Positions 13,655 to 57,189 of a DNA stretch of 64,000 bases are shown here, piece after piece. Position numbers and translations under genes: made by a program. Numbering within the stretch: position 1 is the first letter of the stretch; each line of letters opens with the position of its first letter. The notes under the pieces are model-generated. The model had not been told where the DNA came from, ran no database searches, and saw only the letters and a program-made list of their open reading frames with translations. Origin of the DNA: Stictocephala bisonia. Its lineage: Eukaryota > Arthropoda > Insecta > Hemiptera > Membracidae. The stretch covers positions 26,996 through 90,995 of the forward strand of contig JAQJVL010002581.1 in assembly GCA_035578905.1 (NCBI GenBank). Reading direction: 5' to 3'.

Positions 13655-15686
13655 CCGAAATTTAATAGTGCAAGCCGTGGGCTCATGCTGTCTAAGATAA
13701 AGGTGCAAGACATGGGCTCAGACTGTCTCAGATAAAAGTACAAGCCGTGGACTGATGGTCTCTCAGATAATAGTGCAAGCCGTGGGCTCAGACTGTTCAG
13801 ATAAAAGTGCAAGCTGTGAGCTCATGCTGTCTAAGATAATCGTGTAAACCATGGTTTCATGCTGTCTCAGATAAAGGTGCAAGACATGGGCTCAGACTGT
13901 CTCAGATAAAAGTACAAGCCGTGGACTGATGGTCTCTCAGATAATAGTGCAAGCCGTGGGCTCAGACTGTTCAGATAAAAGTGCAAGCTGTGAGCTCATG
14001 CTGTCTAAGATAATCGTGTAAACCATGGTTTCATGCTGTCTCAGATAAAGGTGCAAGACATGGGCTCAGACTGTCTCAGATAAAAGTACAAGCCGTGGAC
14101 TGATGGTCTCTCAGATAATAGTGCAAGCCGTGGGCTCAGACTGTTCAGATAAAAGTGCAAGCTGTGAGCTCATGCTCTCGGATAAAAGTGCAAGCGGTGG
14201 GCTCATGCTGTCTTAAATAAAAGTGCAAGCCTTGGACTGATGCTCTCTCAGATAAAAGCCGTGTGCTCATACTGTCTTAGATAATAGTGCAATCCGTGGG
14301 CTCATGCTCTCTAAGATAATAGTGTAAACCGTGGTTTCATGCTGCCTCCGATAATTTTGAAAGCCGTGGGCTCATGCTGTCCGAGATAAAAGTGCAAGCG
14401 GTGGGCTCATGCTGTCTCAGATAAAAGTGAAATCCGTGGGCTCATGCTGTCTAAGATAATCGTGTAAACCATGGTTTCATGCTGTCTCAGATAAAGGTGC
14501 AAGACATGGGCTCAGACTGTCTCAGATAAAAGTACAAGCCGTGGACTGATGGTCTCTCAGATAATAGTGCAAGCCGTGGGCTCATGCTGTCTAAGATAAT
14601 CGTGTAAACCATGGTTTCATGCTGTCTCAGATAAAGGTGCAAGACATGGGCTCAGACTGTCTCAGATAAAAGTACAAGCCGTGGACTGATGGTCTCTCAG
14701 ATAATAGTGCAAGCCGTGGGCTCAGACTGTTCAGATAAAAGTGCAAGCTGTGAGCTCATGCTCTCGGATAAAAGTGCAAGCGGTGGAACTCATGCTGTCT
14801 TAAATAAAAGTGTAAGCCTTGGACTGATGCTCTCTCAGATAAAAGCCGTGTGCTCATACTGTCTTAGATAATAGTGCAATCCGTGGGCTCATGCTCTCTA
14901 AGATAATAGTGTAAACCGTGGTTTCATGCTGCCTCCGATAATTTTGAAAGCCGTGGGCTCATGCTGTCCGAGATAAAAGTGCAAGCGGTGGGCTCATGCT
15001 GTCTCAGATAAAAGTGAAATCCGTGGGCTCATGCTGTCTAAGATAATCGTGTAAACCATGGTTTCATGCTGTCTCAGATAAAGGTGCAAGACATGGGCTC
15101 AGACTGTCTCAGATAAAAGTACAAGCCGTGGACTGATGGTCTCTCAGATAATAGTGCAAGCCGTGGGCTCATGCTGTCTAAGATAATCCTGTAAACCATG
15201 GTTTCATGCTGTCTCAGATAAAGGTGCAAGACATGGGCTCAGACTGTCTCAGATAAAAGTACAAGCCGTGGACTGATGGTCTCTCAGATAATAGTGCAAG
15301 CCGTGGGCTCAGACTGTTCAGATAAAAGTGCAAGCTGTGAGCTCATGCTCTCGGATAAAAGTGCAAGCGGTGGAACTCATGCTGTCTTAAATAAAAGTGT
15401 AAGCCTTGGACTGATGCTCTCTCAGATAAAAGCCGTGTGCTCATACTGTCTTAGATAATAGTGCAATCCGTGGGCTCATGCTCTCTAAGATAATAGTGTA
15501 AACCGTGGTTTCATGCTGCCTCCGATAATTTTGAAAGCCGTGGGCTCATGCTGTCCGAGATAAAAGTGCAAGCGGTGGGCTCATGCTGTCTCAGATAAAA
15601 GTGAAATCCGTGGGCTCATGCTGTCTGAAATAAAAGTGCAAGCCTTCGACTGATGCTCTCTCAGAGAAAAGCCGTGTGCTCATACT
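13655..15686. repeat. ~33-35-bp minisatellite with higher-order structure, left part
   Basis: Tandem units resemble GATAAAAGTGCAAGCCGTGG followed by GCTCATGCTGTCTCA. Distinct variants (GTAAACCATGGTTTCATG, AAGACATGGGCTCAGACTG, AAGCGGTGGGCTCATG) recur in fixed order. Blocks of about 182 bp occur near 13,830-14,190, and blocks of about 587 bp occur at 14,461-15,045 and again at 15,046-15,630. The last six bases, CATACT, are the left copy of the target duplication of the large element that interrupts the array. The array resumes at 31,590 and also appears after the assembly gap at 26,039. Confidence 0.93.
15681..15686. repeat. Left target-site duplication CATACT
   Basis: CATACT directly precedes the element start AGTAGGTAAAAACTAAG and is repeated directly after the element end at 31,590-31,595. 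The uninterrupted minisatellite unit reads GCTCATACTGTCTTAG with a single CATACT, as expected of an empty site. Six-base duplications are the rule for Maverick/Polinton integration. Confidence 0.85.
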
Positions 15687-16000
15687 AGTAGGTAAAAACT
15701 AAGGGAGCGAGACCCACTTTTTTTGGTTTTCCAAGATGGCGGCGGTCACGTGACCAGATCCAAGATGGCGACCGGAAGTGGATCCAAGATGGCCGCGGAA
15801 ACGGGAAAACTCCCCGTGGGAATTTTCCCTCACAAGATTTCCCTCCAAAATCCCAAATTTCCCTCAAATTTCCCACATCATACTATATAAAATGCACTTT
15901 TTTCAAGATGGCGGCATTTCCCTTGTTATACTATACAAAATACACTCCTAACCTTTTCCCCGTTATACTATATAAAATGTAAAAAGATGACGGCCTTTTA
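15687..16000 (+). promoter_or_regulatory. Left terminal block with YY1-like and E-box motifs
   Basis: The outer 300 bp holds AAGATGGCGGC at 15,733 and 15,905, near-copies at 15,762 and 15,786, and the perfect palindrome GTCACGTGAC at 15,745-15,754. AAGATGGCGGC matches the YY1/Pho consensus and CACGTG is the USF/Myc-type E-box. TATACTATATAAAATG-like TATA motifs recur at about 15,885, 15,927 and 15,963 and again at 17,002-17,126. The mirror copy lies at about 31,270-31,589. This could be an element promoter or a protein-binding end. Function is inferred from motifs only. Confidence 0.45.
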
Positions 16001-16089
16001 TATATGTACTATAATAAATGAACTTTTAAACTTCGATCATTACCGTTGGCTACCTTCGTACGCTCTTAGCCTACGATGAACGCGTCGGC

Positions 16090-16915
16090 TATAGGTCCGG
16101 CGCGCATGCGCAGGGACTTGCTACTCTACTCATATATACACTATAACAAATGTATTATTTCATACATACAGTATAACAAATGTCACAGCGCACCTAGCAG
16201 CAATTCCGATCGACCGCAGCGCACCTGGTGGCAATGCCGTGCTTTTGACCCGATCGCAGCGCCCCAAGAAGCAATGCCGATCGATCGCAGCGCACCTAGC
16301 AACCACACCAGTGCGCGGGTGGTGCATGCGCGGGGACTTGCTACTTTACTCATATTTACACCATAAAAAATGTATTATTTCATACATACACTATAACAAA
16401 TGTCACAGCGCACCTAGCAGCAATACCGATCGACCACAGCGCACCTGGTGGCAATGCCGTGCTTTTGACCCGATCGCAGCGCCCCGAGCAGCAATGCCGA
16501 TCGATCGCAACACACCTAGTGACCACACCGGTGCGTGAGTGGTACATGCGCAGGGACTTGCTACTCTGTGGCAATATACACCATAACAAACGCAATACTT
16601 CATATATACACTATAACAAACGTAATATTTCATATATACACTATAACAAATGCATTATGGCTGACGCGACCACAGCGCACCTAGCGGCAATTCCGATCGA
16701 CCGGAATGCACCTGGTGGCAATGCCGTGCTTTTGACCCGATCGCAGCGTCCCAAGCAGCAATGCTGATCGATCGCAGCGCACCTAGTGACCACACCAGTG
16801 CGCGGGTGGTGCATGCACGGAGACTTGCTACTCTACTCATATATACACCATAACAAACGCAATATTTCATATATACACTACAATAAATGTCACAGCGCAC
16901 CTGGTGGCAAGACTA
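16090..16915. repeat. ~222-bp subterminal tandem repeat, left arm
   Basis: About 3.5 units share GCATGCGCAGGGACTTGCTA, CATATATACACTATAACAAA, CCGATCGATCGCAGCGCACC and GTGCTTTTGACCCGATCGCAG. The units are much richer in CpG than the flanks. Open frames across them (for example 16,239-16,538 and 16,459-16,767) are in-phase repeats with no domain and are not called as genes. The mirror copy is at 30,535-31,120. Confidence 0.85.
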
Positions 16916-18814
16916 AGCGCATCCTTTCGGAAACATTGCGCCTTCGGAAAGCAAGTCCCTGGTGGTAATTCCCCTTCTCAAATTTCCTTCAAATTCCCTC
17001 GTTATACTATATAAAATGTAAAAAGATGGCATCCTTTCCCTTGTTATACTATATAAAATGCAGTCCTAACTTTTCCCATGTTATACTATATAAAATGCAA
17101 AAAGATGGTGGTCTTTTATATATGTACTATATAAAATGCTTTCGTGTACTTCCGGCGACTGTCGGCTACCTTTGAACGCTCTTCACCCGTCGGCTACTGG
17201 TCAGGCGCACACCCAAATGCCACGCTCTGATTGGTTGCCTCCCTCCCTACTTTCCAGGTAATCTTTCTCACACGTACTGTTAGCCTACCTATTTAAATTA
17301 ATTTTGTATTTAAGTTTTCTCAACTTTTTAATAAATACACTGTTAACCTAGTTTTCTTATATAACTTTCTCTCTTAACTTACCTATGTTCCATGTACTCC
17401 CATTCATCCATGGCTTCCTTTACCATACCCCGTTACCTACCTATACTTACGTTAAAAATATCTAATCAAGGTTGTGTACGTACTTAACACTCTAAGCAAC
17501 CCGCAATACACATTTTATTTAAAAATTAAGGAGTAAATATTACCTAATACACTGTTAACTTTTTAGTCCTTCAACTACCATCGACTACTACCTTCAGCTA
17601 CCCCTCTCCCATCTACTTCCGGTTAACTTCGTATGGATACCTTCGTATCAAACACACCCGGCATCCTCTAAACTTAATACGCTAGCTTAACTTAACTTCG
17701 TACGCTCTTACCCTAGAGCCCTCATGCCTACCCATCTTCGGACTATCCAACCTAAATTACTTTAACTGTACTTACGAGGTCTACCGGTGGCCGGACTTTA
17801 TCGGTCCGTTATTGGTCACAAGCTTTACATTTTCCTTCATTAACTATCAACTAACAATTTCCTATTTTCGCCCACCTTCGGCTACCTTTGCGTGCGTGTA
17901 CATGTTACCTAGGTTACATTACTTACTTTCAGTCACTTTCATTATCAATTCTGTGGACTCAAATACCTCACTTCCTATCCACGTTCCTATCCAGAACCCA
18001 TCAGTCCCCCTACATAACGAAACTAGAACACCTACCCTCACTTCCTTTCCTCAAAAATTCCTTCCTTTTTACTATAGCGACACTCAAGGACTAATTCACT
18101 ACCACTTCACAAACCGTATTTAATTGCCTCTGCTCGGTGCACTGGCAGACCATTAGTTCTCGCGCACTTTTCTTATCGAAACCACTTCCATTACCACAAT
18201 CATTGCTTTACATTTGTTTGTTGTCTTTTATTTGCACAATGTCTTTTAGTAATATCAAACACTTAAGTAACATTGTATATGATTCCTTCTTCTCATTTTG
18301 AAAAACAGTACTACACAGGATGACGTAATTGGAGTTTCAAAACTGGACTGGCGCATGACTCATACAGCGTTTGCGAAACTCGGGTATAGCGCTCCAGGCG
18401 CCAGACTGGTTTTCATGTCTGGACCGGCGCGTGACCCAAATGCTTCGTTCTGATTGGTTTCCCCCTCCCCCTCCTCTCCCCTCCCTCCATCCATCCCTAC
18501 TTCACCGACCAACACACTCAATCTTTCTCACTTCTGTTCTTGCGATCGTACTGATCAGACGTGTGTTCACGTTGCTCCTATTCGATAATAAAAACAATTA
18601 TTCTTATCATAATCACTTTAACTCTTTTACATTTTGGACACCGTTCTCTGCACAGTATTTCAAAAGTGATATACCGAGAGTAAGTTCCATATACAGCATA
18701 AATATTTTTACCTTTGTTCTTTGTGTGGTATTTTGAATTTGTTTCAATATTACCAAGCTTGTCTTGTAAAGTAAATTTACGTTTGTAATTTACCGTTTAA
18801 TTTAATTACCAAAG
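16916..18814 (+). other. Left-arm DNA between tandem block and polymerase, no recognised gene
   Basis: Two open frames are also open in the mirrored arm. 17,812-18,123 (103 codons) corresponds to minus 29,276-29,620, and 18,371-18,736 (121 codons) corresponds to minus 28,695-29,000. Neither resembles a known Polinton protein, their composition is biased to pyrimidine-rich codons, and neither has a good start. A pair of similar segments around GGCGCATGACTCATACAGCG (18,351) and GGCGCGTGACCCAAATGC (18,425) may be regulatory. Most of this is probably leader DNA. Confidence 0.45.
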
Positions 18815-21800
18815 ATGGAATCCTTTGCCATAAACCGCAACCTTTTAACCATTTCCTGTCAGTTTGATACTTACGGTTTCGATCTCCTTACTGTTCTGAC
18901 TGAACATAAAAACAAAATTATGTCTGAAATAAAGAACCACCTAAACAGGTTCGGGGGAGTCAAATGGTACATCACGGTCCAAATTAAATTCACTAAAACT
19001 ATAAATAACGAAGAAATCTCAACAATACATTTCTTTCACGGAAAAACTCGACCTTTGCTACCCTCCGACACTCTAGATATTCAGTATTCCGAGGATACAG
19101 ACAAAATTTTAAAAAGCGTGGGTAAGTCAAGGTAGTGGGTGGGCAATTGAAAATGTTTTACGCCTAGATCTGTTTATTGTTAAATTTCAACCCTTATACG
19201 CTTCTTCTTACATACCCATTCCTAAAAAATCTCAAACTCTATGCATGGAATTATAAATATAAAAAATAACGATGAGAAATGTTTCCTGTACTCTGTACTT
19301 ACCCTATTGTACCCTGACCGACATAGACGAGTAAGTTATTACAGAAAACGTGAAGATGAATTAAACATGTCTGGTAATAGATATCATGTCAAAATTACCG
19401 ATCTCGATAAATTTGAAAAATTAAATCCCGCTATATCAGTCAACGTCTTTGGTTTTGAAAAAGACGAAATTTACCCCCTAAGAATAACAAAAGAAAAATT
19501 TAGAGTTCAACATGTAAACCTGTTATTTCTAACTACTGACACTACTACTCACTACTGTTTAATCACCGACATGTCTTGACTGCTATCTCACACAACTAAA
19601 TGCTCAAATGCATATTACTACTGTGACTACTGCCTACACAGATTTTCTTCTCAATCACGACATACTAACCATTTACCTTTGTGCTCACCACACGGTGCAC
19701 AAAAGACTAGACTTCCGACTGATGACGAAAACTTATGTATTTTCAAAACTATACTCTATGTCACAAAGTCCCCTTCACCATATACTGTGACTGAGTCCTT
19801 TGTTGTACCCATCCCTACTACAATTAATGACCCTACTACTTCACATACTACAAACACTGCCCATCACGTACCTTCTGGCTTTGCTACGTAATTATCGACA
19901 GTGACGGTAAACCCATAAAGCAATCTAAAGTCTATAGCGGCCCCGATGTTGTTGATACTTTTCTAAATTGTTTGATTACAGAGTCTAAAGAGCTCTTACC
20001 AATTATTCATAAAAACATTCCTATTAATATGTCTCCATAAGACAAAATTACCTTCAATAATGCCTCCACCTGTCACCTTTGTCAAAAACCTTTGGATGGA
20101 GACAAAGTAGCTAATTATAATCATTTAACGGGTGAGTTCTTAGGACCCGCCCACAATTCATGTAACTTAAATTATAAAGTTCCTGATCACATACAGGTGT
20201 TTTTTCACAACTTGCGAGGTTATGACTGTCATCATCTTATTCAAGGGTTAGGTAAATTCAAAAAAGAAAAACTCTCATGCATCGCTACTACAAGCGAACG
20301 GTACATTTCAGTCACCCTCGAGTCATTACGATTTCTGGATTCCTTACAGTTCCTTAACGCTTCTTTGGACACACTCATGTCCAACCTAATTACTGACGGG
20401 GCTTCCAAATTCAAAATTTTACAACAGTGTATGACCAACACAGACTTACTTCTACGCAAAGGCGTCTTTCCCTATTCTTACATGACCGATCAATCAAAAT
20501 TTAACGATACTGAACTTCCTCCCAAGGAGGCGTTCTACAATGACCTGACCCAAACACCTATTTCAGACGACGACTACACACATGCACAGACCGTGTGGAC
20601 CACCTTTGGTATGACTTCAATGAAAGAGTACCACGACTTATACTTACTCACAGACGTGTTGTTACTTGCAGACGTTTTTGAAAACTTTAGAACTACCAGT
20701 ATGACTTACTACGGTATTGACCCGTGTAACGTCTACTCTGCCCCCGGACTTGCATGGAATTCCATGCTAAAAATGACAGACATTCATCTTGAACTACTCA
20801 CCTACATTGATCAACACCTATTTGTCGAGTCTGGTATCTGGGGCGGTGTCTCAATGATACCAAACCGGTACGCCCAGGCCAACAACCCTAACTTGCCCGA
20901 CTTTGACAACACAAAACCCATCAACTACCTACTTTATCTTGATTGTAATAATTTATACGGGACCAGTATGTCTGATAGACTCCCAGAGTCTGAATTCAAG
21001 TGGATAGACCCACAAGACATTGACTTTACAAAAGTACCCGATGACTCTGACACTGGATACATTTTAGAAGTGGACCTGCACTACCCAGACCATTTACACG
21101 ACTTACATTCTGACTTTCCACTAGCCCCCAAACGAAAAGTAGTGACAGACGATATGCTTTCCCCCTACTCTAAAAACCTACTTGACAACTGAACTATAAA
21201 CCTTCCAACACTGAAAAATTACTAACTACTCTCTGTGACAAAACCAAGTACGTTTTACACTACAGGACTCTAAAACTTTACTTACAATTGGGACTTGTGC
21301 TAACCAAAGTCCACAGAGCTCTAAGCTTTAAACAGTCTGCTTGGTTAGCCACATTTATTAACTTTAATACAGAAAAAAGAAAAGAAGCGAAAAATAATTT
21401 TGAAAAAGATTGTTTTAAACTAATGAATAATGCTACGTACGGGAAATCCTTAGAAAATGTAAGATCACGTATTGATTTCAAACTTGTAAATAACAAAAAC
21501 AATTGGTTAAATGGACAGCTAGTCCCAGACTTAAAACATTTTTTGCATACAATAAAGATATTGCGGGATTGGCTTTGAAAAAACAAACGATCTTTTTAAA
21601 CCGACCCATTTATGTTGGATTTACAGTATTGGAAATTTCAAAATTAATAATGTATAACTTTCACTACAACTGGGCAATTGCAAAGTATGGGAAAAACGTC
21701 AAGCTTTGTATGACTGACACAGACTCACTATTCTACAATGTATATACTCCCGACGTTTACGCAGATATGAAAAATGAATTACACTTTTTTGATACGTCTG

Positions 21801-22282
21801 ACTATCCACCTAGCCACCCATGCTACAGTGTAGAAAACAAAAAAGTGTTAGGAAAATTTAAAGACGAGTTAAACTCAAATCCGGCTAGGGAAATAATTGG
21901 CTTGAGAGCGAAATGCTACTCCGTTCTAAATTCAGATCTAGAGGAAAAGAAGGTGGCTAAAGGCGTCCCCCAAGTAGCGATAAAAAAACAACTAAAACAC
22001 GATATATATAAAGACTGTCTTTTAAATCATTCGTTAAAAACTACAACCGCTTTAAACATTCGCAGTGACAAACATAACTTGTATACACAACACATTTCCA
22101 AATTATCACTTTCCCCCTTTGACGACAAAAGATACATCTTGGAAAACGGCATTGATACACTAGCATACGGACACCATTTAATTAGTAAAAAACGAGCTTT
22201 AGAACACGATCATGATTTCATTAATACAAAACTAAAACTCACCCATAACTCAAACATAAACTTTGAAACAGAAAAACAATAA
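18815..22282 (+). pseudogene. Protein-primed family B DNA polymerase, left-arm copy, broken
   Basis: Such enzymes copy linear DNA from a protein primer. The start ATG at 18,815 sits in AAAGATGG, a good animal context. Recognisable parts in order are: N-terminal region (18,815-19,135); a Cys/His-containing segment with NNDEKCFLYSVL (about 19,265) and HYCLITDMS; exonuclease I region with IYCD near 19,785; a zinc-finger/HNH-like CHLCQK...NHLTGEF...HNSCNLNYK (20,070-20,180); Exo II HNLRGYDCHHL (20,206); Exo III YLLTDVLLLADVFE (20,641); motif A YLDCNNLYGTSM (20,932); motif B KLMNNATYGKSLEN (21,418); motif C MTDTDSLFY (21,711); and the GLRAKCYS KxY-type motif (about 21,900). Frame breaks occur near 19,130, inside Exo I near 19,790, and near 19,885, 21,187 and 21,540, with a stop near 20,038. 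It is not functional as it stands. The relatives are Maverick, adintovirus and bidnavirus polymerases. Confidence 0.88.
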
Positions 22283-23046
22283 TCTATACACTTCAAACAT
22301 AAAAATTAACAAAAGAACAACTAAAATTGCATACTGTCAGAACTTCTTTCCAGAACCGTTAACCTCTGACTGACTACCACTCCCTTCCCACACCACTCAA
22401 TCCTTTCCCACATCCTGTTCTTATTGCGTCACTTGTATATGGTACCAATCAGTTATTCCACTACATCAGAACTTTGTTAAACTTTTCTAATAAATCTTTT
22501 AAATTTATCGAAAATTACTTAAATCAAATTAATTTTTCTAAAATATTTACCACAACATTACTTTGAAAATGTAATATTGGACAGTTTCTTTGTATATAGG
22601 AAGATTTGTACATAACTTATCCGTTTGGTTAGATTTTACTTTGTAAAAAACCGGGTCCTTTAGCAGTTTCAATGTACGTATATACATGCAAAGTCTACGA
22701 GTAATACTTTGAGCAGTACCACACTGTTACAGGATGTGGCTCACCAAACGCTTGTGTCACAAAGACGAAATATCAGCTTGCTTTAATATAAAAATTATAT
22801 ACTTTCAACTACTAAAAAAGCGATGGAATGAGATTGTAACCCATGGTTACTAACATTTCCGTAGAAATCCAATTTACGGCATTGGATGGGCTCAACCCGA
22901 CCGTAGTGCAATGTAAAAACCTCGTACTGGGCGAACCTTCTTCTTGATTACGGTAACTCCTACGCCAGGTAAGTAATGTTAAGTTAGTTTTGAGTAAACA
23001 CTTTTACCGAAAACCTTTAAAAAACAATATGTAAAGTAAATTCTGT
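22283..23046. other. Inner arm segment downstream of left polymerase
   Basis: There is no credible ORF. This is presumed 3' untranslated and inner-arm DNA, AT-rich except near 22,880-22,975. It contains CCAGGTAAGTAATG at about 22,965, a textbook 5' splice-site string that is preserved in the mirror arm (about 23,410-23,435, complement). The arm homology ends at TTCTGT, 23,041-23,046. Confidence 0.6.
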
Positions 23047-23346
23047 TATAATATGGACACTTTTGTGAGTTTACATACTACAATTTATTAACGGATATCT
23101 TCAGCTCTGTGTGAATTTCTATAGAATACCGTACCATCGAGGTGAGGGCGGCCCAAATTTAATAAAAAATCGCCCGACTGTTCTCTAAGGCAGCCGTAAA
23201 ACGCATAAGTCCTGAGGCGGTCCTGCAACTTGGGGCTGGGCTAAACCCCGTAAGACCTCGAGTCGCAGTCCGGGCCCTCGTAAGGTACGTGTATGATTAC
23301 CTCCTGGTATTATTTTTGTATTTTTTTATCCATATTTTTTATCCAT
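23047..23346. other. 300-bp central spacer of the palindrome
   Basis: These 300 bp are present once and separate the two arms. The outer parts are AT-rich and the core (about 23,190-23,290) is GC-rich with GGGGCTGGGCTAAACCCC and GTCCGGGCCCTCG. No ORF is present. It marks the centre of symmetry and prevents a perfect hairpin. Confidence 0.75.
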
Positions 23347-24110
23347 ACAGAATTTACTTTACAGATTGTTTTTTAAAGGTTGACGGTAAAAGAGTTTACT
23401 CAAAACTAACTTAACATTACTTACCTGGCGTAGGAGTTACCGTAATCAAGAAGAAGGTTCGCCCAGTACGAGGTTTTTACATTGCACTACGGTCGGGTTG
23501 AGCCCATCCAATGCCGTAAATTGGATTTCTACGGAAATGTTAGTAACCATGGGTTACAATCTCATTCCATCGCTTTTTTAGTAGTTGAAAGTATATAATT
23601 TTTATATTAAAGCAAGCTGATATTTCGTCTTTGTGACACAAGCGTTTGGTGAGCCACATCCTGTAACAGTGTGGTACTGCTCAAAGTATTACTCGTAGAC
23701 TTTGCATGTATATACGTACATTGAAACTGCTAAAGGACCCGGTTTTTTACAAAGTAAAATCTAACCAAACGGATAAGTTATGTACAAATCTTCCTATATA
23801 CAAAGAAACCGTCCAATATTACATTTTCAAAGTAATGTTGTGGTAAATATTTTAGAAAAATTAATTTGATTTAAGTAATTTTCGATAAATTTAAAAGATT
23901 TATTAGAAAAGTTTAACAAAGTTCTGATGTAGTGGAATAACTGATTGGTAACATATGCAAGTGACGCAATAAGAACAGGATGTGGGAAAGGATTGAGTGG
24001 TGTGGGAAGGGAGTGGTAGTCAGTCAGAGGTTAACGGTTCTGGAAAGAAGTTCTGACAGTATGCAATTTTAGTTGTTCTTTTGTTAATTTTTATGTTTGA
24101 AGTGTATAGA
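23347..24110. other. Inner arm segment, mirror of 22,283-23,046
   Basis: Reverse complement of the left inner segment with only scattered differences, including the mirrored splice-donor string near 23,430. No gene was seen. Confidence 0.7.
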
Positions 24111-25938
24111 TTATTGTTTTTCTGTTTCAAAGTTTATGTTTGAGTTATGGGTGAGTTTTAGTTTTGTATTAATGAAATCATGATCGTGTTCTAAAGCTCG
24201 TTTTTTACTAATTAAATGGTGTCCGTATGCTAGTGTATCAATGCCGTTTTCCAAGATGTATCTTTTGTCGTCAAAGGGGGAAAGTGATAATTTGGAAATG
24301 TGTTGTGTATACAAGTTATGTTTGTTACTGCGAATGTTTAAAGCGGTTGTAGTTTTTAACGAATGATTTAAAAGACAGTCTTTATATATATCGTGTTTTA
24401 GTTGTTTTTTTATCGCTACTTGGGGGACGCCTTTAGCCACCTTCTTTTCCTCTAGATCTGAATTTAGAACGGAGTAGCATTTCGCTCTCAAGCCAATTAT
24501 TTCCCTAGCCGGATTTGAGTTTAACTCGTCTTTAAATTTTCCTAACACTTTTTTGTTTTCTACACTGTAGCATGGGTGGCTAGGTGGATAGTCAGACGTA
24601 TCTAAAAGGTGTAATTCATTTTTCATATCTGCGTAAACGTCGGGAGTATATACATTGTAGAATAGTGAGTCTGTGTCAGTCATACAAAGCTTGACGTTTT
24701 TCCCATACTTTGCAATTGCCCAGTTGTAGTGAAAGTTATACATTATTAATTTTGAAATTTCCAATACTGTAAATCCAACATAAATGGGTCGGTTTAAAAA
24801 GATCGTTTGTTTTTTCAAAGCCAATCCCACAATATCTTTATTGTATGCAAAAAATGTTTTAAGTCTGGGACTAGCTGTCCATTTAACCAATTGTTTTTGT
24901 TATTTACAAGTTTGAAATCAATACGTGATCTTACATTTTCTAAGGATTTCCCGTACGTAGCATTATTCATTAGTTTAAAACAATCTTTTTCAAAATTATT
25001 TTTCGCTTCTTTTCTTTTTTCTGTATTAAAGTTAATAAATGTGGCTAACCAAGCAGACTGTTTAAAGCTTAGAGCTCTGTGGACTTTGGTTAGCACAAGT
25101 CCCAATTGTAAGTAAAGTTTTAGAGTCCTGTAGTGTAAAACGTACTTGGTTTTGTCACAGAGAGTAGTTAGTAATTTTTCAGTGTTGGAAGGTTTATAGT
25201 TCAGTTGTCAAGTAGGTTTTTAGAGTAGGGGGAAAGCATATCGTCTGTCACTACTTTTCGTTTGGGGGCTAGTGGAAAGTCAGAATGTAAGTCGTGTAAA
25301 TGGTCTGGGTAGTGCAGGTCCACTTCTAAAATGTATCCAGTGTCAGAGTCATCGGGTACTTTTGTAAAGTCAATGTCTTGTGGGTCTATCCACTTGAATT
25401 CAGACTCTGGGAGTCTATCAGACATACTGGTCCCGTATAAATTATTACAATCAAGATAAAGTAGGTAGTTGATGGGTTTTGTGTTGTCAAAGTCGGGCAA
25501 GTTAGGGTTGTTGGCCTGGGCGTACCGGTTTGGTATCATTGAGACACCGCCCCAGATACCAGACTCGACAAATAGGTGTTGATCAATGTAGGTGAGTAGT
25601 TCAAGATGAATGTCTGTCATTTTTAGCATGGAATTCCATGCAAGTCCGGGGGCAGAGTAGACGTTACACGGGTCAATACCGTAGTAAGTCATACTGGTAG
25701 TTCTAAAGTTTTCAAAAACGTCTGCAAGTAACAACACGTCTGTGAGTAAGTATAAGTCGTGGTACTCTTTCATTGAAGTCATACCAAAGGTGGTCCACGC
25801 GGTCTGTGCATGTGTGTAGTCGTCGTCTGAAATAGGTGTTTGGGTCAGGTCATTGTAGAACGCCTCCTTGGGAGGAAGTTCAGTATCGTTAAATTTTGAT
25901 TGATCGGTCATGTAAGAATAGGGAAAGACGCCTTTGCG
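24111..25938 (-). pseudogene. pPolB, right-arm copy, C-terminal half up to the gap
   Basis: This is the mirrored C-terminal half of the polymerase. Motif C MTDTDSLFY, motif B KLMNNATYGKSLEN, motif A YLDCNNLYGTSM and Exo III YLLTDVLLLADVFE are all present on the minus strand. The frame changes near 24,855 and 25,203 are the mirror images of those at 21,540 and 21,187 in the left copy, so they are shared lesions or shared programmed shifts. The sequence runs into 100 Ns at 25,939, and an open frame across the Ns into the minisatellite is an artefact. The segment 25,551-25,938 is repeated in the same orientation at 26,575-26,958. Confidence 0.88.
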
Positions 25939-26038
25939 NNNNNNNNNNNNNNNNNNNNNNNNNNNNNNNNNNNNNNNNNNNNNNNNNNNNNNNNNNNNNN
26001 NNNNNNNNNNNNNNNNNNNNNNNNNNNNNNNNNNNNNN
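25939..26038. other. Assembly gap of exactly 100 Ns
   Basis: A run of exactly 100 N is the usual placeholder for a join of unknown length. Left of it is polymerase sequence; right of it is the minisatellite that normally lies outside the element. Order and distance across this point should not be trusted. Confidence 0.95.
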
Positions 26039-26363
26039 GTGCAAGCGGTGGGCTCATGCTGTCTTAAATAAAAGTGCAAGCCTTGGACTGATGCTCTCTC
26101 AGATAAAAGCCGTGTGCTCATACTGTCTTAGATAATAGTGCAATCCGTGGGCTCATGCTCTCTAAGATAATAGTGTAAACCGTGGTTTCATGCTGCCTCC
26201 GATAATAGTGAAAGCCGTGGGCTCATGCTGTCCGAGATAAAAGTGCAAACGGTGGGCTCATGCTGTCTCAGATAAAAGTGAAATCCGTGGGCTCATGCTG
26301 TCTGAAATAAAAGTGCAAGCCTTGGACTGATGCTCTCTCAGATAAAAGCCGTGTGATCATACT
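26039..26363. repeat. Minisatellite block beside the second left terminus
   Basis: This is the same ~33-35-bp minisatellite as at 13,655-15,686. The last ~200 bp have the same unit order as the array left of 15,687, including the final GAAATAAAAGTGCAAGCC unit and CATACT at 26,358-26,363, with a few substitutions. It therefore looks like another copy or allele of the left insertion flank. Confidence 0.9.
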
Positions 26364-26574
26364 AGTAGGTAAAAACTAAGGGGGCGAGACCCACTTTTTT
26401 TTGGTTTTCCAAGATGGCGGCGGTCACGTGACCGGATCCAAGATGGCGACTGGAAGTGGATCCAAGATGGCCGCTGGAAACGGAAGCAGCGGTACCAACT
26501 TCCCGTGGGAATTTTCCCTCGCAAGATTTCCTTCCAAAATCCCAAATTTCCCTCACATTTCCCATACTACTCCC

Positions 26575-28616
26575 CAGATACCAGACTCGACAAATAGGTG
26601 TTGATCAATGTCAGTGAGTAGTTCAAGATGAATGTCTGTCATTTTTAGCATGGAATTCCATGCAAGTCCGGGGGCAGAGTAGACGTTACACGGGTCAATA
26701 CCGTAGTAAGTCATACTGGTAGTTCTAAAGTTTTCAAAAACGTCTGCAAGTAACAACACGTCTGTGAGTAAGTATAAGTCGTGGTACTCTTTCATTGAAG
26801 TCATACCAAAGGTGGTCCACACGGTCTGTGCATGTGTGTAGTCGTCGTCTGAAATAGGTGTTTGGGTCAGGTCATTGTAGAACTCCTTGGGAGGAAGTTC
26901 AGTATCGTTAAATTTTGATTGATCGGTCATGTAAGAATAGGGAAAGACGCCTTTGCGTAGAAGTAAGTCTGTGTTGGTCATACACTGTTGTAAAATTTTG
27001 AATTTGGAAGCCCCGTCAGTAATTAGGTTGGACACGAGTGTGTCCAAAGAAGCGTTAAGGAACTGTAAGGAATCCAGAAATCGTAATGACTCGAGGGTGA
27101 CTGAAATGTACCGTTCGCTTGTAGTAGCGATGCATGAGAGTTTTTCTTTTTTGAATTTACCTAACCCTTGAATAAGATGATGACAGTCATAACCTCGCAA
27201 GTTGTGGAAAACACCGGTATGTGATCAGGAACTTTATAATTTAAGTTACATGAATTGTGGGTGGGTCCTAAGAACTCAGCCGTTAAATGATTATGATTAG
27301 CTACTTTGTCTCCATCCAAATGTTTTTGACAAAGGTGACAGGTGGAGGCATTATTGAAGGTAATTTTGTCTTGTGGAGACATATTAATAGGAATGTTTTT
27401 ATGAATAATTGGTAAGAGCTCTTTAGACTCTGTAATCAAACAATTTAGAAAAGTATCAACAACATCGGGGCCGCTATAGACTTTAGGTTGCTTTATGGGT
27501 TTACCGTCACTGTCGATAATTACGTAGCAAAAGCCAGAAGGTACGTGATGGGCAGTGTTTGTAGTATGTGAAGTAGTAGGGTCATTAATTGTAGTAGGGA
27601 TGGGTACAACAAAGGACTCAAAGTCACAGTATATGGTGAAGGGGACTTTGTGACATAGAGTATAGTTTTTAAAATACATAAGTTTTTCGTCATCAGTCGG
27701 AAGTCTAGTCTTTTGTGCACCGTGTGGTGAGCACAAAGGTAAGTGGTTAGTAAGTCGTGATTGAGAAGAAAATCTGTGTAGGCAGCAGTCACAGTAGTAA
27801 TATGCATTTGAGCATTTAGTTGTGTGAGATAGCAGTCAAGACATATCGGTGATTAAACAGTAGTGAGTAGTAGTGTCAGTAGTTAGAAGTAACAGGTTTA
27901 CATGTTGAACTCTACATTTTTCTTTTGTTATTCTTAGGGGGTAAATTTCGTCTTTTTCAAAACCAAAGACGTTGACTGATATAGCGGGATTTAATTTTTC
28001 AAATTTATCGAGATCGGTAATTTTGACATGATAACTATTACCAGACATGTTAAATTCATCTTCACGTTTTCTGTAATAACTTACTCGTATATGTCGGTCA
28101 GGGTACAATTGGGCAAGTACAGAGTACAGGAAACATTAAATTTTTCATCGTTATTTTTTATATTTATAATTCCATGCATAGAGTTTGAGATTTTTTTAGG
28201 AGTGGGTATGTAAGAAGAAGCGTACAAAAGGGTTGAAGTTTAACAATAAACAGATCTAGGCGTAAAACATTTTCAATTGCCCACCCACTACCTTGACTTA
28301 CCCACTTACCCACGCTTTCTAAGATTTTGTCTGTAGCCTCGGAATACTGAATATCTAGAGAGTCGGAGGGTAGCAAAGGTCGAGTTTTTCCGTGAAAGAA
28401 AGGTATTGTTGAGATTTCTTCGTTATTTATAGTTTTAGTGAATTTAATTTGGACCGTGATGTACCATTTGACTCCCCCGAGCCTGAATAGGTGGTTCTTT
28501 ATTTCAGACATAATTTTGTTTTTATGTTCAGTCGGAACAGTAAGGAGATCGGAACCGTAAGTACCAAACCGACGGAAAATGGTTACAAGGTTGTGGTTTA
28601 TGGCAAAGGATTCCAT
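26575..28616 (-). pseudogene. pPolB, N-terminal part of right copy, broken
   Basis: On the minus strand from ATG 28,616 the N-terminal region reads further than in the left copy, through a GSGWAIENV motif (28,616-28,164). It then breaks in the Cys/His segment near 28,120. The exonuclease I region is intact here, with CHKVPFTIYCDFESF about 27,640, as is the Cys/His zinc-finger-like CHLCQK...NHLTAEF...HNSCNLNYK (about 27,210-27,350). Another break falls near 27,197, just before Exo II HNLRGYDCHHL. The reading then continues through Exo III to the junction at 26,575. One codon is missing near 26,883 relative to the other copies. These lesions differ from those of the left copy in the same stretch. 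Confidence 0.85.
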
Positions 28617-30534
28617 CTTTGGTAATTAAATTAAACGGTAAATTACAAACGTAAATTTACTTTACAAGACAAGCTTGGTAATATTGAAACAAATTCAAAA
28701 TACCACATAAAGATCAAAGGTAAAAATATTTATACTGTATATGGAACTTACTCTCGGTATATCACTTTTGAAATACTGTGCAGAGAACGGTGTCCAAAAT
28801 GTAAAAGAGTTAAAGTGTTTATGATGAGAATAATTGTATTTATTATCGAATAGGAGCAACGTGAACACACGTCTGATCAGTACGAGCGCAAGAGCAGAAG
28901 TGAGAAAGATTGAGAGTGTTGGTCGGTTAAGTAGGGATGGATGGGGGAGGGATGGGGAGGGGGGAGGGGGAAACCAATCAGAACGTAGCATTTGGGTCAC
29001 GCGCCTGTCCAGACATGAAAACCAGTCTGGTGCGTGGAGCGCTATACCCGAGTTTCGCAGCCGCTGTATGAGTCGTGCACCTGTCCAGACTTGAAACTCC
29101 GATTACGTCATCCTGTGTAGTACTGTTTTTCAAAATGAGAAGAAGGAATCATATACAATGTTACTTAAGTGTTTGATATTACTAAAAGACATTGTGCAAA
29201 TAAAAGACAACAAACGAGATGTAAAGCAATGATTGTGGTAATGGAAGTGGTTTCGATAAGAAAAGTGCGCGAGAACTAATGGACTGCCAGTGCGCCGAGC
29301 AGAGGCAATGAGATACGGTTTGTGAAGTGGTAGTGAATTAGTCCTTGAATGTCGCTATAGTAAAAAGGAAGGAATTTTTGAGGAAAGGAAGTGAGGGTAG
29401 GTGTTCTAGTTTCGTTATGTAGGGGGACTGATGGGTTCTGGATAGGAACGTGGATAGGAAGTGAGGTATTTGAGTCCACAGAATTGATAATGAAGGTGAC
29501 TGAAAGTAAGTAATGTAACCTAGGTAACATGTACACGCACGCAAAGGTAGCCGAATGTGGGCGAAAATAGGAAATTGTTAGTTGATAGTTAATGAAGGAA
29601 AATGTGAAGCTTGTGACCAATAACGGACCGATAAAGTCCGGCCACCAGTAGACCTTGTAAGTACAGTTAAAGTAATTTAGGTTGGATAGTCCGAAGATGG
29701 GTAGGCATGAGGGCTCTAGGGTAAGAGCGTACGAAGTTAAGTTAAGCTAGCGTATTAAGTTTAGAGGATGCCGGGTGTGTTTGATACGAAGGTATCCATA
29801 CGAAATTAACCGGAAGTAGATGGGAGAGGGGTAGCTGAAGGTAGTAGTCGATGGTAGTTGAAGGACTAAAAAGTTAACAGTGTATTAGGTAATATTTACT
29901 CCTTAATTTTTAAATAAAATGTGTATTGCGGGTTGCTTAGAGTGTTAAGTACGTACACAACCGTGATTAGATATTTTTAACGTAAGTATAGGTAGGTAAC
30001 GGGGTATGGTAAAGGAAGCCGTGGATGAGTGGGAGTACATGGAACATAGGTAAGTTAAGAGAGAAAGTTATATAAGAAAACTAGGTTAACAGTGTATTTA
30101 TTAAAAAGTTGAGAAAACTTAAATAAAAAATTAATTTAAATTAATAGGTAGGCTAACAGTACGTGTGAGAAAGATTACCTGTAAAGTAAGGAGGGAGGCA
30201 ACCAATCAGAGCGTGGCATTTGGGTGTGCGCCAGACCAGTAGCCGACGGGTGAAGAGCGTTCAAAGGTAGCCGACAGTCGCCGGAAGTACACGAAAGCTA
30301 TTTATATAGTACATATATAAAAGACCACCATCTTTTTGCATTTTATATAGTATAACATGGGAAAAGTTAGGACTGCATTTTATATAGTATAACAAGGGAA
30401 AGGATGCCATCTTTTTACATTTTATATAGTATAACGAGGGAATTTGAAGGAAATTTGAGAAGGGGAATTACCACCAGGGACTTCCCTTCCGAAGACGCAA
30501 TGTTTCCGAAAGGATGCGCTTAGTATTGCTACCA
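28617..30534 (-). other. Mirror of the left-arm leader region
   Basis: Reverse complement of 16,916-18,814 with scattered substitutions. Open frames minus 29,276-29,620 and minus 28,695-29,000 mirror those in the left arm but are not recognised. No credible gene. Confidence 0.6.
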
Positions 30535-31120
30535 GGTGCGCTGTGACATTTATTGTAGTGTATATATGAAATATTGCGTTTGTTATGGTGTATATATGAG
30601 TAGAGTAGCAAGTCCCCGTGCATGCACCAGCCGCGCACTGGTGTGGTCGCTAGGTGCGCTGCGATCGATCGGCATTGCTGCTTGGGGCGCTGCGATCGGG
30701 TCAAAAGCACGGCATTGCCACCAAGTGCATTGCGGTCGATCGGAATTGCCGCTAGGTGCGCTGTGGTCGCGTCAGCCATAATGCATTTGTTATAGTGTAT
30801 ATATGAAATATTACGTTTGTTATAGTGTATATATGAAGTATTGCGTTTGTTATGGTGTATATTGCCACAGAGTAGCAAGTCCCTGCGCATGTACCACCCG
30901 CGCACCGGTGTGGTCACTAGGTGTGTTGCGATCGATCGGCATTGCTGCTTGGGGCGCTGCGATCGGGTCAAAAGCACGGCATTGCCACCAGGTGCGCTGC
31001 GGTCGATCAGAATTGCCGCTAGGTGCGCTGTGACATTTGTTATAGTGTATGTATGAAATAATACATTTGTTATAGTGTATATATGAGTAGAGTACCAAGT
31101 CCCTGCGCATGCGCGCCGGA
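30535..31120. repeat. ~222-bp subterminal tandem repeat, right arm
   Basis: Mirror of 16,090-16,915 and shorter by roughly one unit. It carries the same GCGATCGATCGGCATTGC and CATATATGAG-type strings. The length difference shows that the arms have diverged in copy number. Confidence 0.8.
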
Positions 31121-31269
31121 CCAGCAGCCGACGCGTGCATCGTAGGCTAAGAGGTATAGGTATTTTTGTATTTTATAATAATACATATAATACATACCTA
31201 TAAGCGTACGAAGGTAGCCGACGGTAATGATCGAAGTTTAAAAGTTCATTTATTATAGTACATATATAA

Positions 31270-31589
31270 AAGGCCGCCATCTTTTTACATTTTATATAGT
31301 ATAACGGGGAAAAGGTTAGGAATGTATTTTTATAGTATAACAAGGGAAATGCCGCCATCTTGAAAAAAGTGCATTTTATATAGTATGATGTAGAAAATGT
31401 GAGAGACATTTGGGATTTTTGAGGGAAATTTTGTGAGGGAAAATTCCCATGGGGGTTGGTACCACTGCTTCCGTTTCCAGCGGCCAACTTGGTTCCACTT
31501 CCGGTCGCCATCTTGGATCTGGTCACATGACCGCCGCCATCTTGGAAAACCAAAAAAAGTGGGTCTGGCTCCCTTAGTTTTTACCTACT
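31270..31589 (-). promoter_or_regulatory. Right terminal block with YY1-like and E-box-like motifs
   Basis: Mirror of 15,687-16,000. GCCGCCATCTTG occurs at about 31,352 and 31,533 and CGCCATCTTGG at about 31,505. The palindrome is altered here to GTCACATGAC. It ends in CTTAGTTTTTACCTACT. Confidence 0.45.
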
Positions 31590-32102
31590 CATACTGTCTT
31601 AGATAATAGGGCAATCCGTGGGCTCATGCTCTCTAAGATAATAGTGTAAACCGTGGTTTCATGCTGCCTCCGATAATAGTGAAAGCCGTGGGCTCATGCT
31701 GTCCGAGATAAAAGTGCAAGCGGTGGGCTCATGCTGTCTCAGATAAAAGTGCAAGCCGTGGGCTCATGCTATCTCAAGTAATAGTGTAAGCTGTGAGCTC
31801 ATGCTCTCTAAGATAATAGTGTAAACCGTGGTTTCATGCTGTCTCAGATAAAACTGTAATCCGTGGGCTCATGCTATCTCAAGTAATAGTGTAAGCTGTG
31901 AGCTCACGCTCTCTAAGATAATAGTGTAAACCGTGGTTTCATGCTGTCTCAGATAAAACTGTAATCCGTGGGCTCATGCTATCTCAAGTAATAGTGTAAG
32001 CTGTGAGCTCACGCTCTCTAAGATAATAGTGTAAACCGTGGTTTCATGATGTCTCAGATAAAAGTGCAAGCCGTGGGCTCATGCTGTCTCAGATAATAGT
32101 CA
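31590..32102. repeat. Minisatellite resumes; right target-site duplication at 31,590-31,595
   Basis: The array begins with CATACTGTCTTAGATAATAG, continuing the unit interrupted at 15,686, and runs with three near-identical ~118-bp groups (31,795-32,050) until about 32,102. The first six bases are the right copy of the CATACT duplication. Confidence 0.93.
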
Positions 32103-32901
32103 AGCTGGTTGTAGACTTTAAGAGGTGTACTCAAGGTTTCCTCTTGTTCAGCTCACCTACATCGTTATTAATTTGCTATTTGTTTTGCTGCCATTGCCAT
32201 AATTTAAATAACTGACTTATTTAAAATCAGTTTTACTTTTGATTAAAAGTACCATTCCACAACTTCACAATTTGAAAAATGTTCTAACGTTGTTAACAAA
32301 CACTTCCGTAGCTATAACAAGTAATATAATATAGGTAATTAATAACTCAAGTCTCTGAAAACCTATTTTATACTCTTTTTAGAGTCTGTTTGAACTATTA
32401 TAATAAATATTTAATATTACAGATTCAAACTAAATTATGTGTAGAACTGATAGTCTGAGAGAGCTTCTTCCACATTTCCACTCCACCGTGAACGTGCTGC
32501 AAGGTGCAGTCAAGTCTCTAATTTAACTTATTAATTCACACGGACTGCTGGACTATTAAGCTTCAGTTCACTCTCATCATAAGTTGTGATTCCTGTACAA
32601 AATGATGGATGGTTTTCCTTAAATATGTGTTTTTACATATTGTATATTTGTGTGACGTTGAAAACAAATATTATTAAAATAGTTTGCAGAATAACATATC
32701 GTTAGTTTTGTGTGTTTTTATTTAATTTAAATTTAAAAAATACACATTTCTACATTTATTATGTTTAAATTATCACAAATTAAATACGAGTATTACAATT
32801 ATTTGTTATATTCACTTATTTAATTTTCTAATTACAACATTAAAACGAACGATTGTAACTTATCCAATCTATGATAAAATTCTGCAGTACAAAGAAGAAA
32901 T
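32103..32901. other. No recognised feature
   Basis: AT-rich DNA with stops in all frames. No repeats or domains were recognised. Confidence 0.6.
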
Positions 32902-33335: not shown

Positions 33336-36235
33336 TTAAAATGCTGTTTCTCGTTTTGGAAATAATTTACATTTCTTTTTGAAAATGCCAGCCTTATCAT
33401 GGATAATGTCAATATTCTCTCCACCAGAAAGCATTAGGTTGTAATCCCTCATCATCCAAAGAAGAGGCGAGGACGCATGCACAACCTTACGAACGTGTGG
33501 CAAGTCAAATAGAAGCCTATTTCTGCTGTTTAAAGCAAGGATCCTAAAAGAGAGAATCTCCAGGTTGACAGCGTCATCTACCCGTGCCTGGACCAGGCCA
33601 TGCAGAAACATCTGCCCCATCACATCCCTCCTCAGGCGTAGACTTTCAAACAAAACAGACTCAATAATTAACTGTATGGATCCAAATAATTATAAACATT
33701 GAAGCACTTGAAATAAAGATATCTTAATTGTTTGGAAGAGTAAAGAGTTTCTAATCCTTTAATTTTAAAAATTAAGTATCGTTATGTTTTTGTACAGGTA
33801 TGGAGGTCTTAATCGTTAATTTTTTTTTTTCATGCGGCCCCCATAATTGGTTCTTGGTCTGTTGGGGTCACAGTTGTTTTTCACAGGTTTTATTATGTAT
33901 GTTTTCTTTTGTTTGTTTTGGTTTTTGAATATATCTGTTTGAATATAAATAAATCTTATGTTTAATAATTTAGCCTATATCTGGTTGTATTTAAACTTTA
34001 TTATATATTATTGTATTATAACCAAGAATGAATTATAATTTGGAGTACTTTATTTAGCGCTTAAGTTATAATTGTGTTTCTTCAGTTATTTTTTTTTAAT
34101 TTTATTTTATTTTTTTATTTTTCATAAAATGTGCCTTTTTATTGTGATTAATAATTTTGCCTGTGAAACTAAACTATACCTGTGAAAAAAATAAATACAT
34201 ATGTAAGTATTATTATTATTAAAAATCTTTTTGCATTCTTTCAATTGAATCGTTTTGAAATGAATGAATGGAATTCCATATTATAACAGCACTTTCCAGT
34301 TTTGCCTTATACAAAAATATTGGCGTCGTTATAATTTGAAAATGTACACCTTGTCTGATAATAAACCCCATCATTCTGCTTGCGGATGATATAAAATTAC
34401 TTACGTGGATATCAAATGACAAATTACAATCCATATTTAACTGCAGATCTTTAGTTGATTTTACTCTGCAAATTAAATGTCCATTTGAATAGTAGTTGCT
34501 TTTAATGCAATTTTCTGGTCAACTGAAGGTCATAGTATGATATTTCGATAGATTTAATTTCATTTTATTGTCTTACCCCATTTATAAATGCTATTACGAT
34601 CTTCTTGAAGTCTCTCAGCATCATGGTAGTCTGTTATGTAGTGAAATAACTTCAAGTCATCTGCAAATAATAATGGCTTCGAGTGGACCACATGTATGCA
34701 CAAGTCATTAATCATGATCGTGAACAAACACGGTCCTAAGTTCGATCCTTGGGGACTCCTGATTGGACAGTAAATTTTTCTGATAAATGTCCTTTATGAA
34801 ACACATACTGCTTCATATTTATTAAATAATACCTAAAAAAAAAGTAGATCAAGCTATCTGATAACCCATAATGATGCAATTTCCTAAGTAAAATTGATTA
34901 ATCCACTTTATCATATGGACCAGGTCATGGAATATAGCATCCGTCTGGGCGTTTCTATTCAAACCCGAGGAGTTGTAATGAGTGAAGGATAGTTAATTTG
35001 TGTTGTTCAAACCCATGTTGATTAGGATAAAGTTGGTTCTTAAAATGCTTAAATACTAGTTTCTGGATAACACTTGCCGGAACAGACAAAACAGCCACCG
35101 GTCTATAATTTTCAATCTGAGATTCTTTTCCACTGTTAAAAATTTGGCGTTACTTTATAAATTTTCCATTTTTCTGGAAAACACAAGGGTTTAAACTTAA
35201 ATTAAATATAATAGTAAGTGGTTTCGACAATATATCAACATACCCCTTAGTTAAATATTGCGGTAATAAGTCTGGACCTGCAGTAGCTTTTAACTTTAGT
35301 TTTTTAATTGCAACGGACACATCACTCTCAGAGACCTGGCCCAGAGACAGGCAAGGCACGCCTACACCAGAGGGATCAGCCATTGCCATCTCTGCCGTAG
35401 GCTCTTCAGTGTATCTATTATACACAGAAACAAAATAATGTTCAAAAGCTTGAACAATATCTTTGCCATTGGTAAGCTGATTCCCACAGCTAATAAATTA
35501 TTCTTAACAGATTTTTTGCTTCTTGCAAAACACCAAAACTTATTACTATCTGAATATATATAAGTTATATAATTTTATTTTCTAAATTAAAATATTCCCT
35601 ATATTCAACTCTAATTTCTTTCTTAACCAGTGACCTCAATTGTTTAAATGTATCTAAATCCTCATTTCGACTATATTTTTTGATTTTACGTCGATGCCTT
35701 TCCTTTAATTTAATGTTTAAAATAATTGATTTTGTAAATAAACATGGGTATTTGGGCTGTTTACACTTCTTTTTAGGATATATTAAATCAAGAACTTTGT
35801 AAATATTTTTATAAAATAAATCCACAGCTTCATTTACATTTGAAATAGAACTTAGGCAATCCCAGTCTATTTCAGCTAAGTTACAACAAAGCTGGATGAA
35901 GTTGGCCCTATCAAAAGAATAGGCTGGCGCTTCATTCAACTTTGGCCTACACAATAAAGGAACGCAGGGAACAATCCCCACCTCTATCACCGGATGATAA
36001 GAGTCCTCACAAACCATATTATCAATATTTCTAATCACTAAATCCAATGTTTTATTCTGGTAATTACAACAGTATTCTTAAGAGTATAGTTCTGTTCATT
36101 TAAAAATGTTAATAATTCATTGCATAGTTTATCACCATTATACAAGTTGTACTTAGGCCCATGTATCTGCAAATTAAAATCTCCAACAATCAGTACACTA
36201 CAGTTATTCTTTAAATTACTTGATATAGACTTTCA
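33336..36235 (-). pseudogene. Non-LTR ORF2: endonuclease and reverse transcriptase, broken
   Basis: The polyprotein nicks DNA and copies its RNA at the nick. Visible on the minus strand are: the endonuclease GDFN motif (CSVLIVGDFNLQIHGP, about 36,160-36,205); the SYHPVIE catalytic His region (about 35,985); a basic linker (35,565-36,047); RT entry SDVSVAIKKLKLKATAGPD (about 35,270-35,325); QGSNLGPCLF and the catalytic FADD (34,656-34,667); thumb-like LDSK/DCNLSFDIHVSNFISSASR (34,340-34,434); and the C-terminal tail ESLRLRRDVMGQMFLHGL (about 33,595-33,650). Several frameshifts and stops (for example 34,740-35,150 and 35,430-35,560) plus the insertion make it non-functional. Confidence 0.85.
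33725..34212. other. ~490-bp interruption of the reverse transcriptase
   Basis: The coding sequence stops at RMQKDF (34,219) and resumes at LRYLYFK (about 33,715). In between is non-coding DNA rich in T, ending on the plus strand in AATAAATACATATG and (ATT)n. It could be the 3' end of another retrotransposon inserted in plus orientation. Both junctions show TTAA, but no terminal inverted repeat was recognised. Confidence 0.5.
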
Positions 36236-36284: not shown

Positions 36285-37225
36285 CATCATCAGGTGACTG
36301 TGCGTGGTGGGAGATATGATCTGTCACACATGCGCTGTCCGCACGCCATTATCAGGTGACTGTGCGTGGTGGGAGATATGATCTGTCACACATGCGCTGT
36401 CCGCACGCCATCATCAGGTGACTGTGCGTGGTGGGAGATATGATCTGTCACACATGCGCTGTCCGCACGCCATTATCAGGTGACTGTGATACGTGGTGGG
36501 AGATATGATCTGTCACACATGCGCTGTCCGCACGCCATTATCAGGTGACTGTGCGTGGTGGGAGATATGATCTGTCACACATGCGCTGTCCGCACGCCAT
36601 TATCAGGTGACTGTGCGTGGTGGGAGATATGATCTGTCACACATGCGCTGTCCGCACGCCATTATCAGGTGACTGTGCGTGGTGGGAGATATGATCTGTC
36701 ACACATGCGCTGTCCGCACGCCATTATCAGGTGACTGTGCGTGGTGGGAGATATGATCTGTCACACATGCGCTGTCCGCACGCCATCATCAGGTGACTGT
36801 GCGTGGTGGGAGATATGATCTGTCACACATGCGCTGTCCGCACGCCATCATCAGGTGACTGTGCGTGGTGGGAGATATGATCTGTCACACATGCGCTGTC
36901 CGCACGCCATTATCAGGTGACTGTGCGTGGTGGGAGATATGATCTGTCACACATGCGCTGTCCGCACGCCATCATCAGGTGACTGTGCGTGGTGGGAGAT
37001 ATGATCTGTCACACATGCGCTGTCCGCACGCCATCATCAGGTGACTGTGCGTGGTGGGAGATATGATTTGTCACACATGCGCTGTCCGCACGCCATTATC
37101 AGGTGACTGTGCGTGGTGGGAGATATGATCTGTCACACATGCGCTGTCCGCACGCCATTATCAGGTGACTGTGCGTGGTGGGAGATATGACCTGTCACAC
37201 ATGCGCTGTCCGCACGCCATTATCC
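36285..37225. repeat. 62-bp minisatellite, ~15 near-identical units
   Basis: Units contain ATTATCAGGTGACTGTGCG, GGTGGGAGATATGATCTGTC and ACACATGCGCTGTCCGCACG. About 15 copies run from 36,289 with only rare changes (ATTATC/ATCATC; one 66-bp unit at 36,475 with GATACGTGG; single C/T changes near 37,068 and 37,191). It is clearly richer in GC than its flanks and begins right after the truncated 5' edge of the retrotransposon. Confidence 0.97.
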
Positions 37226-56124: not shown

Positions 56125-56249
56125 ATCTTCTCAATTTATTTAATATTAAATTTTCTTTTAAAATCTGGTCTGAGATAATTTGTGATAAGCACACACTTTT
56201 CTATTTTAAACGTCTCTCTGTTGTTCAACGAGCAGAGTGGCGCACTTTA

Positions 56250-57174: not shown

Positions 57175-57189
57175 AAATGAAACCCCTGG

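Follow-up and report, generated by a model that had tools for sequence, protein, structure and literature searches.

The question raised by this locus is whether one giant palindromic element, carrying a protein-primed DNA polymerase (pPolB) in each of its two arms, occupies positions 15687-31589 of the window, by which we mean the whole 64,000-nucleotide stretch of Stictocephala bisonia contig JAQJVL010002581.1 that was analysed. A preliminary description had proposed such an element, with arms of about 7.3 kb on either side of a 300-bp spacer and with ends of the Maverick/Polinton type. Inverted arms are indeed present, and a palindromic centre lies within one continuous sequence piece, which we call copy A; the proposed continuity of the whole did not hold up. 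As assembled, 15687-31589 consists of two sequence pieces and not of a single palindrome. A run of 100 N (25939-26038) splits the proposed right arm, and the sequence 3' of this assembly gap does not continue the arm but begins with satellite DNA (26039-26363), followed by a second left terminus (26364-26564, + strand) in the same direct orientation as the first. Copy A (15687-25938) is without a right end, and the second piece, copy B (26364-31589), has both ends. An assembly gap can in this way make two copies resemble one giant element.

Left of the gap, copy A runs from satellite through its terminus at 15687 into a 7.4-kb arm (15687-23046, + strand), a non-palindromic central spacer of 300 bp (23047-23346) and the inner 2,592 bp of the inverted arm (23347-25938, - strand). 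The left arm opens with AGTAGG and holds subterminal tandem repeats of 220 and 267 bp (16104-16890, + strand) as well as polymerase remnants that point to the centre. In copy B the second left terminus is joined, through 7 bases (26565-26571) at the junction of an internal deletion, to the inverted arm, of which the outer 5.0 kb are present (26572-31589, - strand) and which ends in CCTACT at the right terminus. The left arm, the spacer, the terminal inverted repeats and the subterminal repeats of the preliminary description are confirmed; what it took for the right arm combines 2,592 bp from one piece with 5,018 bp from the other.

Self-comparison of the window aligned 20455-23046 with 23347-25938 as an inverted repeat of 2,592 bp at 99.54% identity, with 12 mismatches and no indels. 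In 20 base shuffles of 15687-25938 no inverted match exceeded 34 bp, and the similarity of the arms is therefore far beyond chance. Further out, 16324-20843 matches 26572-31112 of copy B in inverted orientation (96.8%, 31 gap columns), and additional pieces extend the match to 15687 and 31589; over the outer arms 4838 of 4978 aligned columns are alike (97.2%, gaps left out). Four open reading frames (ORFs) on the spacer gave no Pfam match, one of the spacer ORFs (23166-23411) had no protein homologue with E up to 10, and Rfam returned 0 matches at the gathering threshold.

Remnants of the polymerase, a putatively protein-primed one, occur in both orientations: in several frames at 19253-22189 (+ strand, aligned to the polymerase of the metagenomic relative L019, described below), at 24204-25935 in the inner right arm of copy A, and at 26571-28135 in copy B. 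Pfam DNA_pol_B_2 scores above its cut-off of 25.8 bits on the frames 20041-21189 (35.4 bits) and 26556-27224 (33.8 bits) and below it on 21186-21575 (15.1 bits), and frame 21494-22279 gives no match to this family. Additionally, a PHROG DNA polymerase family matches 20041-21189 (E 3e-4). The peptides YLDCNNLYG, NNATYGK and MTDTDS, which we take to be polymerase motifs A, B and C, are found in both the left and the inner right arm of copy A, and an ORF upstream of the remnants (18806-19135) presumably recalls the polymerase N-terminus. When compared with the open L019 ORF, the reading frame changes near 19880, at 21180-21216 and at 21476-21494 in the left arm of copy A, and near 27209 in copy B. 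The changes at 21180-21216 and 21476-21494 have counterparts in the inner right arm of copy A, and an in-frame TGA is common to the left arm of A (19577-19579) and the right arm of B (27836-27838). Judged from these lesions, the polymerase is broken in the left arm of copy A, in its inner right arm and in copy B in this assembly, a state that was missed when a polymerase was assigned to each arm; the broken polymerase suggests that nothing in the insertion is active now. A PDB profile search found no polymerase; its one match, a weak one, was a thymidine kinase (E 0.084). The structure predicted for the 383-residue polymerase fragment was too poor to be of use (mean predicted local distance difference test score, pLDDT, 59; predicted template modelling score, pTM, 0.37).

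A protein search with the polymerase fragment returned 5,431 proteins with E up to 0.001, and the best-scoring of the 120 listed is 57% identical; molluscs (Pecten, Mercenaria, Gigantopelta), corals and spiders are named among the matches listed. One protein among those matches is named Candidatus Thiodiazotropha. A second polymerase piece (224 residues of copy B) has one relative, 35% identical. A single-sequence fragment scan of viral and genome contigs found no relative, and profile searches found one viral locus and 17 loci in records of bacterial or archaeal metagenome-assembled genomes, and then L019; the 17 loci (L002-L018) are likely eukaryotic or viral DNA that was binned into those genomes. 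L019, for which 14,463 bp of a 17,398-bp IMG/VR contig were examined, resembles the window element in a related polymerase (42% identical to the 383-residue fragment) and in a sub-cut-off match to Endonuclease_7. It differs in that the polymerase region lies in one open ORF of 1,286 residues, in the presence of a Pox_A32-type ATPase and of an rve integrase that scores just above its family cut-off (33.2 versus 32.6 bits), and in having no inverted repeat of at least 40 bp in the examined stretch; it also carries a GIY-YIG domain. In another relative, L012, the polymerase match is broken by stop codons and lies about 6.3 kb from an rve plus Chromo integrase; like L019, this contig is Maverick-like. 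We call the long polymerase-like ORFs in L001, L012 and L019 polymerases because of their similarity to the window fragment, as none of them matched DNA_pol_B_2 at E 0.01. No inverted repeat holding a polymerase was reported in the first 18 loci, a weak survey, as 14 of them are shorter than 8 kb and not one is known to be a complete element.

Other element genes were sought by Pfam scans (E limits 1, 5 and 0.1) of 47 distinct ORFs of at least 45 residues: 39 lie in the left arm or the spacer of copy A, and the other 8 are some of those in copy B. Among these 47 no rve-type integrase, capsid, packaging ATPase or protease family scored above its own cut-off, in agreement with the earlier observation that integrase and capsid genes were not visible, and no P-type transposase, the mark of Galileo and the P superfamily, was found. 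A VP16-like major capsid model gave 13.2 bits on 22363-22563 (E 0.079), which is below its cut-off of 27, and the match was taken as chance. The element is filed as a defective Maverick derivative and not as a complete member.

The ends of the element resemble those of a Maverick/Polinton, as had been noted at the outset. The same hexamer, CATACT, adjoins the left end of copy A (15681-15686) and both ends of copy B (26358-26363 and 31590-31595), so that a 6-bp target-site duplication accompanies the terminal inverted repeats, and the end motifs AGTAGG and CCTACT agree in five of six bases with (AGT)2, a motif described for vertebrates. A search with the terminus pattern matched no viral contig. 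The insertion target is a 35-bp satellite array with a 587-bp higher-order period (13663-15680). In the uninterrupted satellite site, ...GTGTGCTCATACTGTCTTAG..., CATACT stands at positions 14268, 14855, 15442 and 26119, the first three of which are spaced by 587 bp. Satellite also precedes copy B (26039-26357), in the same register as left of copy A, and follows it (31596-32107). Around the insertion, the higher-order period of 587 bp is seen to the left (13663-15671) and a period of 105 bp to the right (31588-32107). In both copies the insertion point is 239 bp past the same satellite landmark, and an alignment of the two left flanks shows 8 differences over 325 bases (26039-26363 versus 15361-15686; BLAST identity 97.2%). 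On this sequence evidence, A and B look like two versions of one insertion, either alleles or a local duplicate.

Intact vertebrate Mavericks mostly have eight genes, one pPolB and terminal repeats of 46-1,447 bp. Their ends are of the 5'-(AGT)2 or (AG)3 type, their target duplications are 6 bp long, and the module with the polymerase is generally oriented toward the centre (PMC8097293). The window element is like them in its 6-bp duplication, terminal inverted repeats and centre-pointing polymerase, and its ends come close to (AGT)2; it is unlike them in that its polymerase is broken and forms part of the inverted arms, and in that no other element gene was found. If the palindrome is real along its entire length, Maverick inverted repeats would here have grown to include the polymerase gene, beyond the range reported for intact vertebrate elements.

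With confidence just short of even, we favor the view that copy A is a defective Maverick insertion that owes its palindrome to the copying of one end onto the other, followed by exchange between the arms, and that copy B is a deleted allele or duplicate of it. A Maverick/Polinton-type element integrated in the satellite array with a 6-bp target duplication, as its ends show, and its polymerase was inactivated; all later steps are inferred. The polymerase-bearing end would then have been copied onto the opposite end during break repair, with the terminal inverted repeats as primer, either by break-induced replication or by long-tract gene conversion. A gene-conversion extension of terminal repeats has been proposed for Galileo, and expansion of Polinton inverted repeats is said there to be reported (PMC3573991). 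Such copying would have overwritten the remainder of the element, so that a palindrome around a 300-bp loop resulted; gene conversion between the arms would have kept their inner parts nearly identical, and copy B would have lost the left arm and centre of the same insertion. The polymerase-side arm is the left one in copy A and the right one in copy B, and the lesions common to both arms would be explained by copying inside a dead insertion without any helper.

Of the 12 differences between the inner arms of copy A, over 2592 sites, 6 are transitions and 6 transversions; the left arm of A and the right arm of B differ at 101 of 3966 sites over 16437-20454, a significantly higher rate (Fisher p=8e-12). 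The difference between these outer arms falls toward the centre, from 4.3% at 18187-19186 to 2.8% (to 19686), 1.3% (to 20454) and 0.5% (to 20843), and over eight 500-bp bins from 16437 the rate varies more than a uniform one would (chi-square p=0.014). The inner identity together with the more diverged edges fits gene conversion from arm to arm. The termini differ at 7/188 sites between A-left and B-left, 12/187 between A-left and B-right and 18/199 between B-left and B-right. The idea that the termini are clearly older than the arms was dropped, as a better alignment leaves only a modest difference.

Several observations weigh against this account. Farther out, the trend between A-left and B-right does not continue steadily (2.0% over 16437-18186, 4.6% over 15687-16103), and the outer 2.5% may be divergence between the copies, since A is there compared with B, whose flank also differs by 2.5%. 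Four of the 12 inner mismatches, all transversions, cluster at 23000-23029 beside the spacer. The probability of 4 or more falling in the last 50 bp is 6e-5, for a window picked after viewing the data; for any 4 lying within 30 bp it is 0.002. It looks as though the edges of the arms had escaped conversion and the palindrome were older than the inner identity suggests. In 10 of the 13 indel runs between A-left and B-right, outside tandem repeats, it is A-left that lacks the bases; piece A may contain deletion errors, and some of the lesions may be assembly errors. The common inner lesions could equally have been spread by conversion, or could be one assembly error seen in both arms. Finally, two other satellite copies, 14188-14495 and 14774-15082, share 94.5-95.8% identity with the A and B flanks, near the 97.2% between A and B. 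As neighboring satellite copies are nearly as similar to the flanks, the main argument for a common origin of the two copies is that they are inserted at the identical point.

A different origin would be replicative fold-back before integration, the inverted dimer of the preliminary description, in which a protein-primed template switch about 300 nt back yields a palindromic genome with two identical ends that a helper integrase inserts in trans, with homogenisation of the arms and the deletion in copy B following later. We regard this as possible but doubtful. The 300-bp loop suits it, as do polymerase-side arms to the left (A) and right (B) of one target position with one duplication; it accounts for two like ends equally well as end copying, and somewhat better for the older-looking edge of the centre, where four of the last 50 bp differ, a divergence comparable with that between the termini. 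The common lesions, however, suggest that the polymerase was already broken when it was copied, so that fold-back would need a helper polymerase or later conversion, and within the window no second insertion was seen. Given these lesions and the published proposal for Galileo, copying in place is at least as likely as replicative fold-back.

The suspicion voiced early on that assembly matters was justified, and it may be asked whether the centre itself is a product of chimeric molecules or reads that folded back, or of repeats collapsed in the assembly, with only an ordinary decayed Maverick present. The first piece stops inside the right arm at the N gap and the second restarts at a left terminus, the inner arms show no indel over 2592 bp, and the shortage of bases in A-left is also in favor of such an error. 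On the other side, neither the 300-bp spacer nor the 12 substitutions, with their cluster of four at the centre, fit a self-folded read, and copy B independently has a right-side polymerase arm at the site where A has a left-side one; we consider an artefact unlikely. Still less can be said for a distinct, self-sustaining foldback family with pPolB as its only gene, as had also been suggested. The lack of other element genes above cut-off among the scanned ORFs speaks for such a family, but the polymerase is broken in every copy and arm named above, a single insertion site, in two copies, was seen within the window, and the metagenomic relatives L019 and L012 have an rve integrase on the same contig. 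We therefore judge this proposal very improbable.

End copying and fold-back each have counterparts elsewhere. Adenovirus and the pGKL linear plasmids are protein-primed replicons able to form inverted dimers of one end. Palindromic defective adenovirus genomes were reportedly described by Daniell in 1976, and pGKL1 is said to give hairpin and dimer plasmids. These palindromes are extrachromosomal, whereas the window element is integrated and decayed. If fold-back were its origin, doubtful as we think this is, Mavericks would throw off mobile palindromic parasites much as adenoviruses do. The sequence of the centre offers a simple genome-wide discriminator between a mobile palindrome, with a cycle like that of defective genomes, and repair in place. 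Galileo, a foldback-like P-superfamily element of Drosophila, is similar to the window element in its long, internally repetitive inverted repeats and in its recruitment of internal sequence (TIR1-F1-F1-TIR2); it differs in that its repeats average 668 bp and in its P-type transposase, which is unrelated to pPolB (PMC3573991). Repeats of hundreds to thousands of bases are reported in cryptophyte Polinton-like viruses (PMC12220804), and two adenovirus packaging reviews state that incomplete particles carry left-end DNA and, in the excerpts cited, do not describe palindromes (PMC5033970, PMC12090768). A palindromic or foldback Polinton appeared in none of the titles or abstract openings among the literature matches listed, which is weak evidence, as subscription journals lie mostly outside the coverage.

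Elsewhere in the window, a 102-bp tandem repeat of about 105 copies occupies 2-10654, and more tandem arrays, with units of 62, 64 and 69 bp, lie at 36285-37224, 43005-43326 and 46985-47740. Two ORFs at 35150-36077 (- strand) had no Pfam match at E 0.01; they presumably resemble a LINE reverse-transcriptase region. At 56246-57177 there is a 260-bp inverted repeat, whose halves are 97.7% alike and about 410 bp apart.

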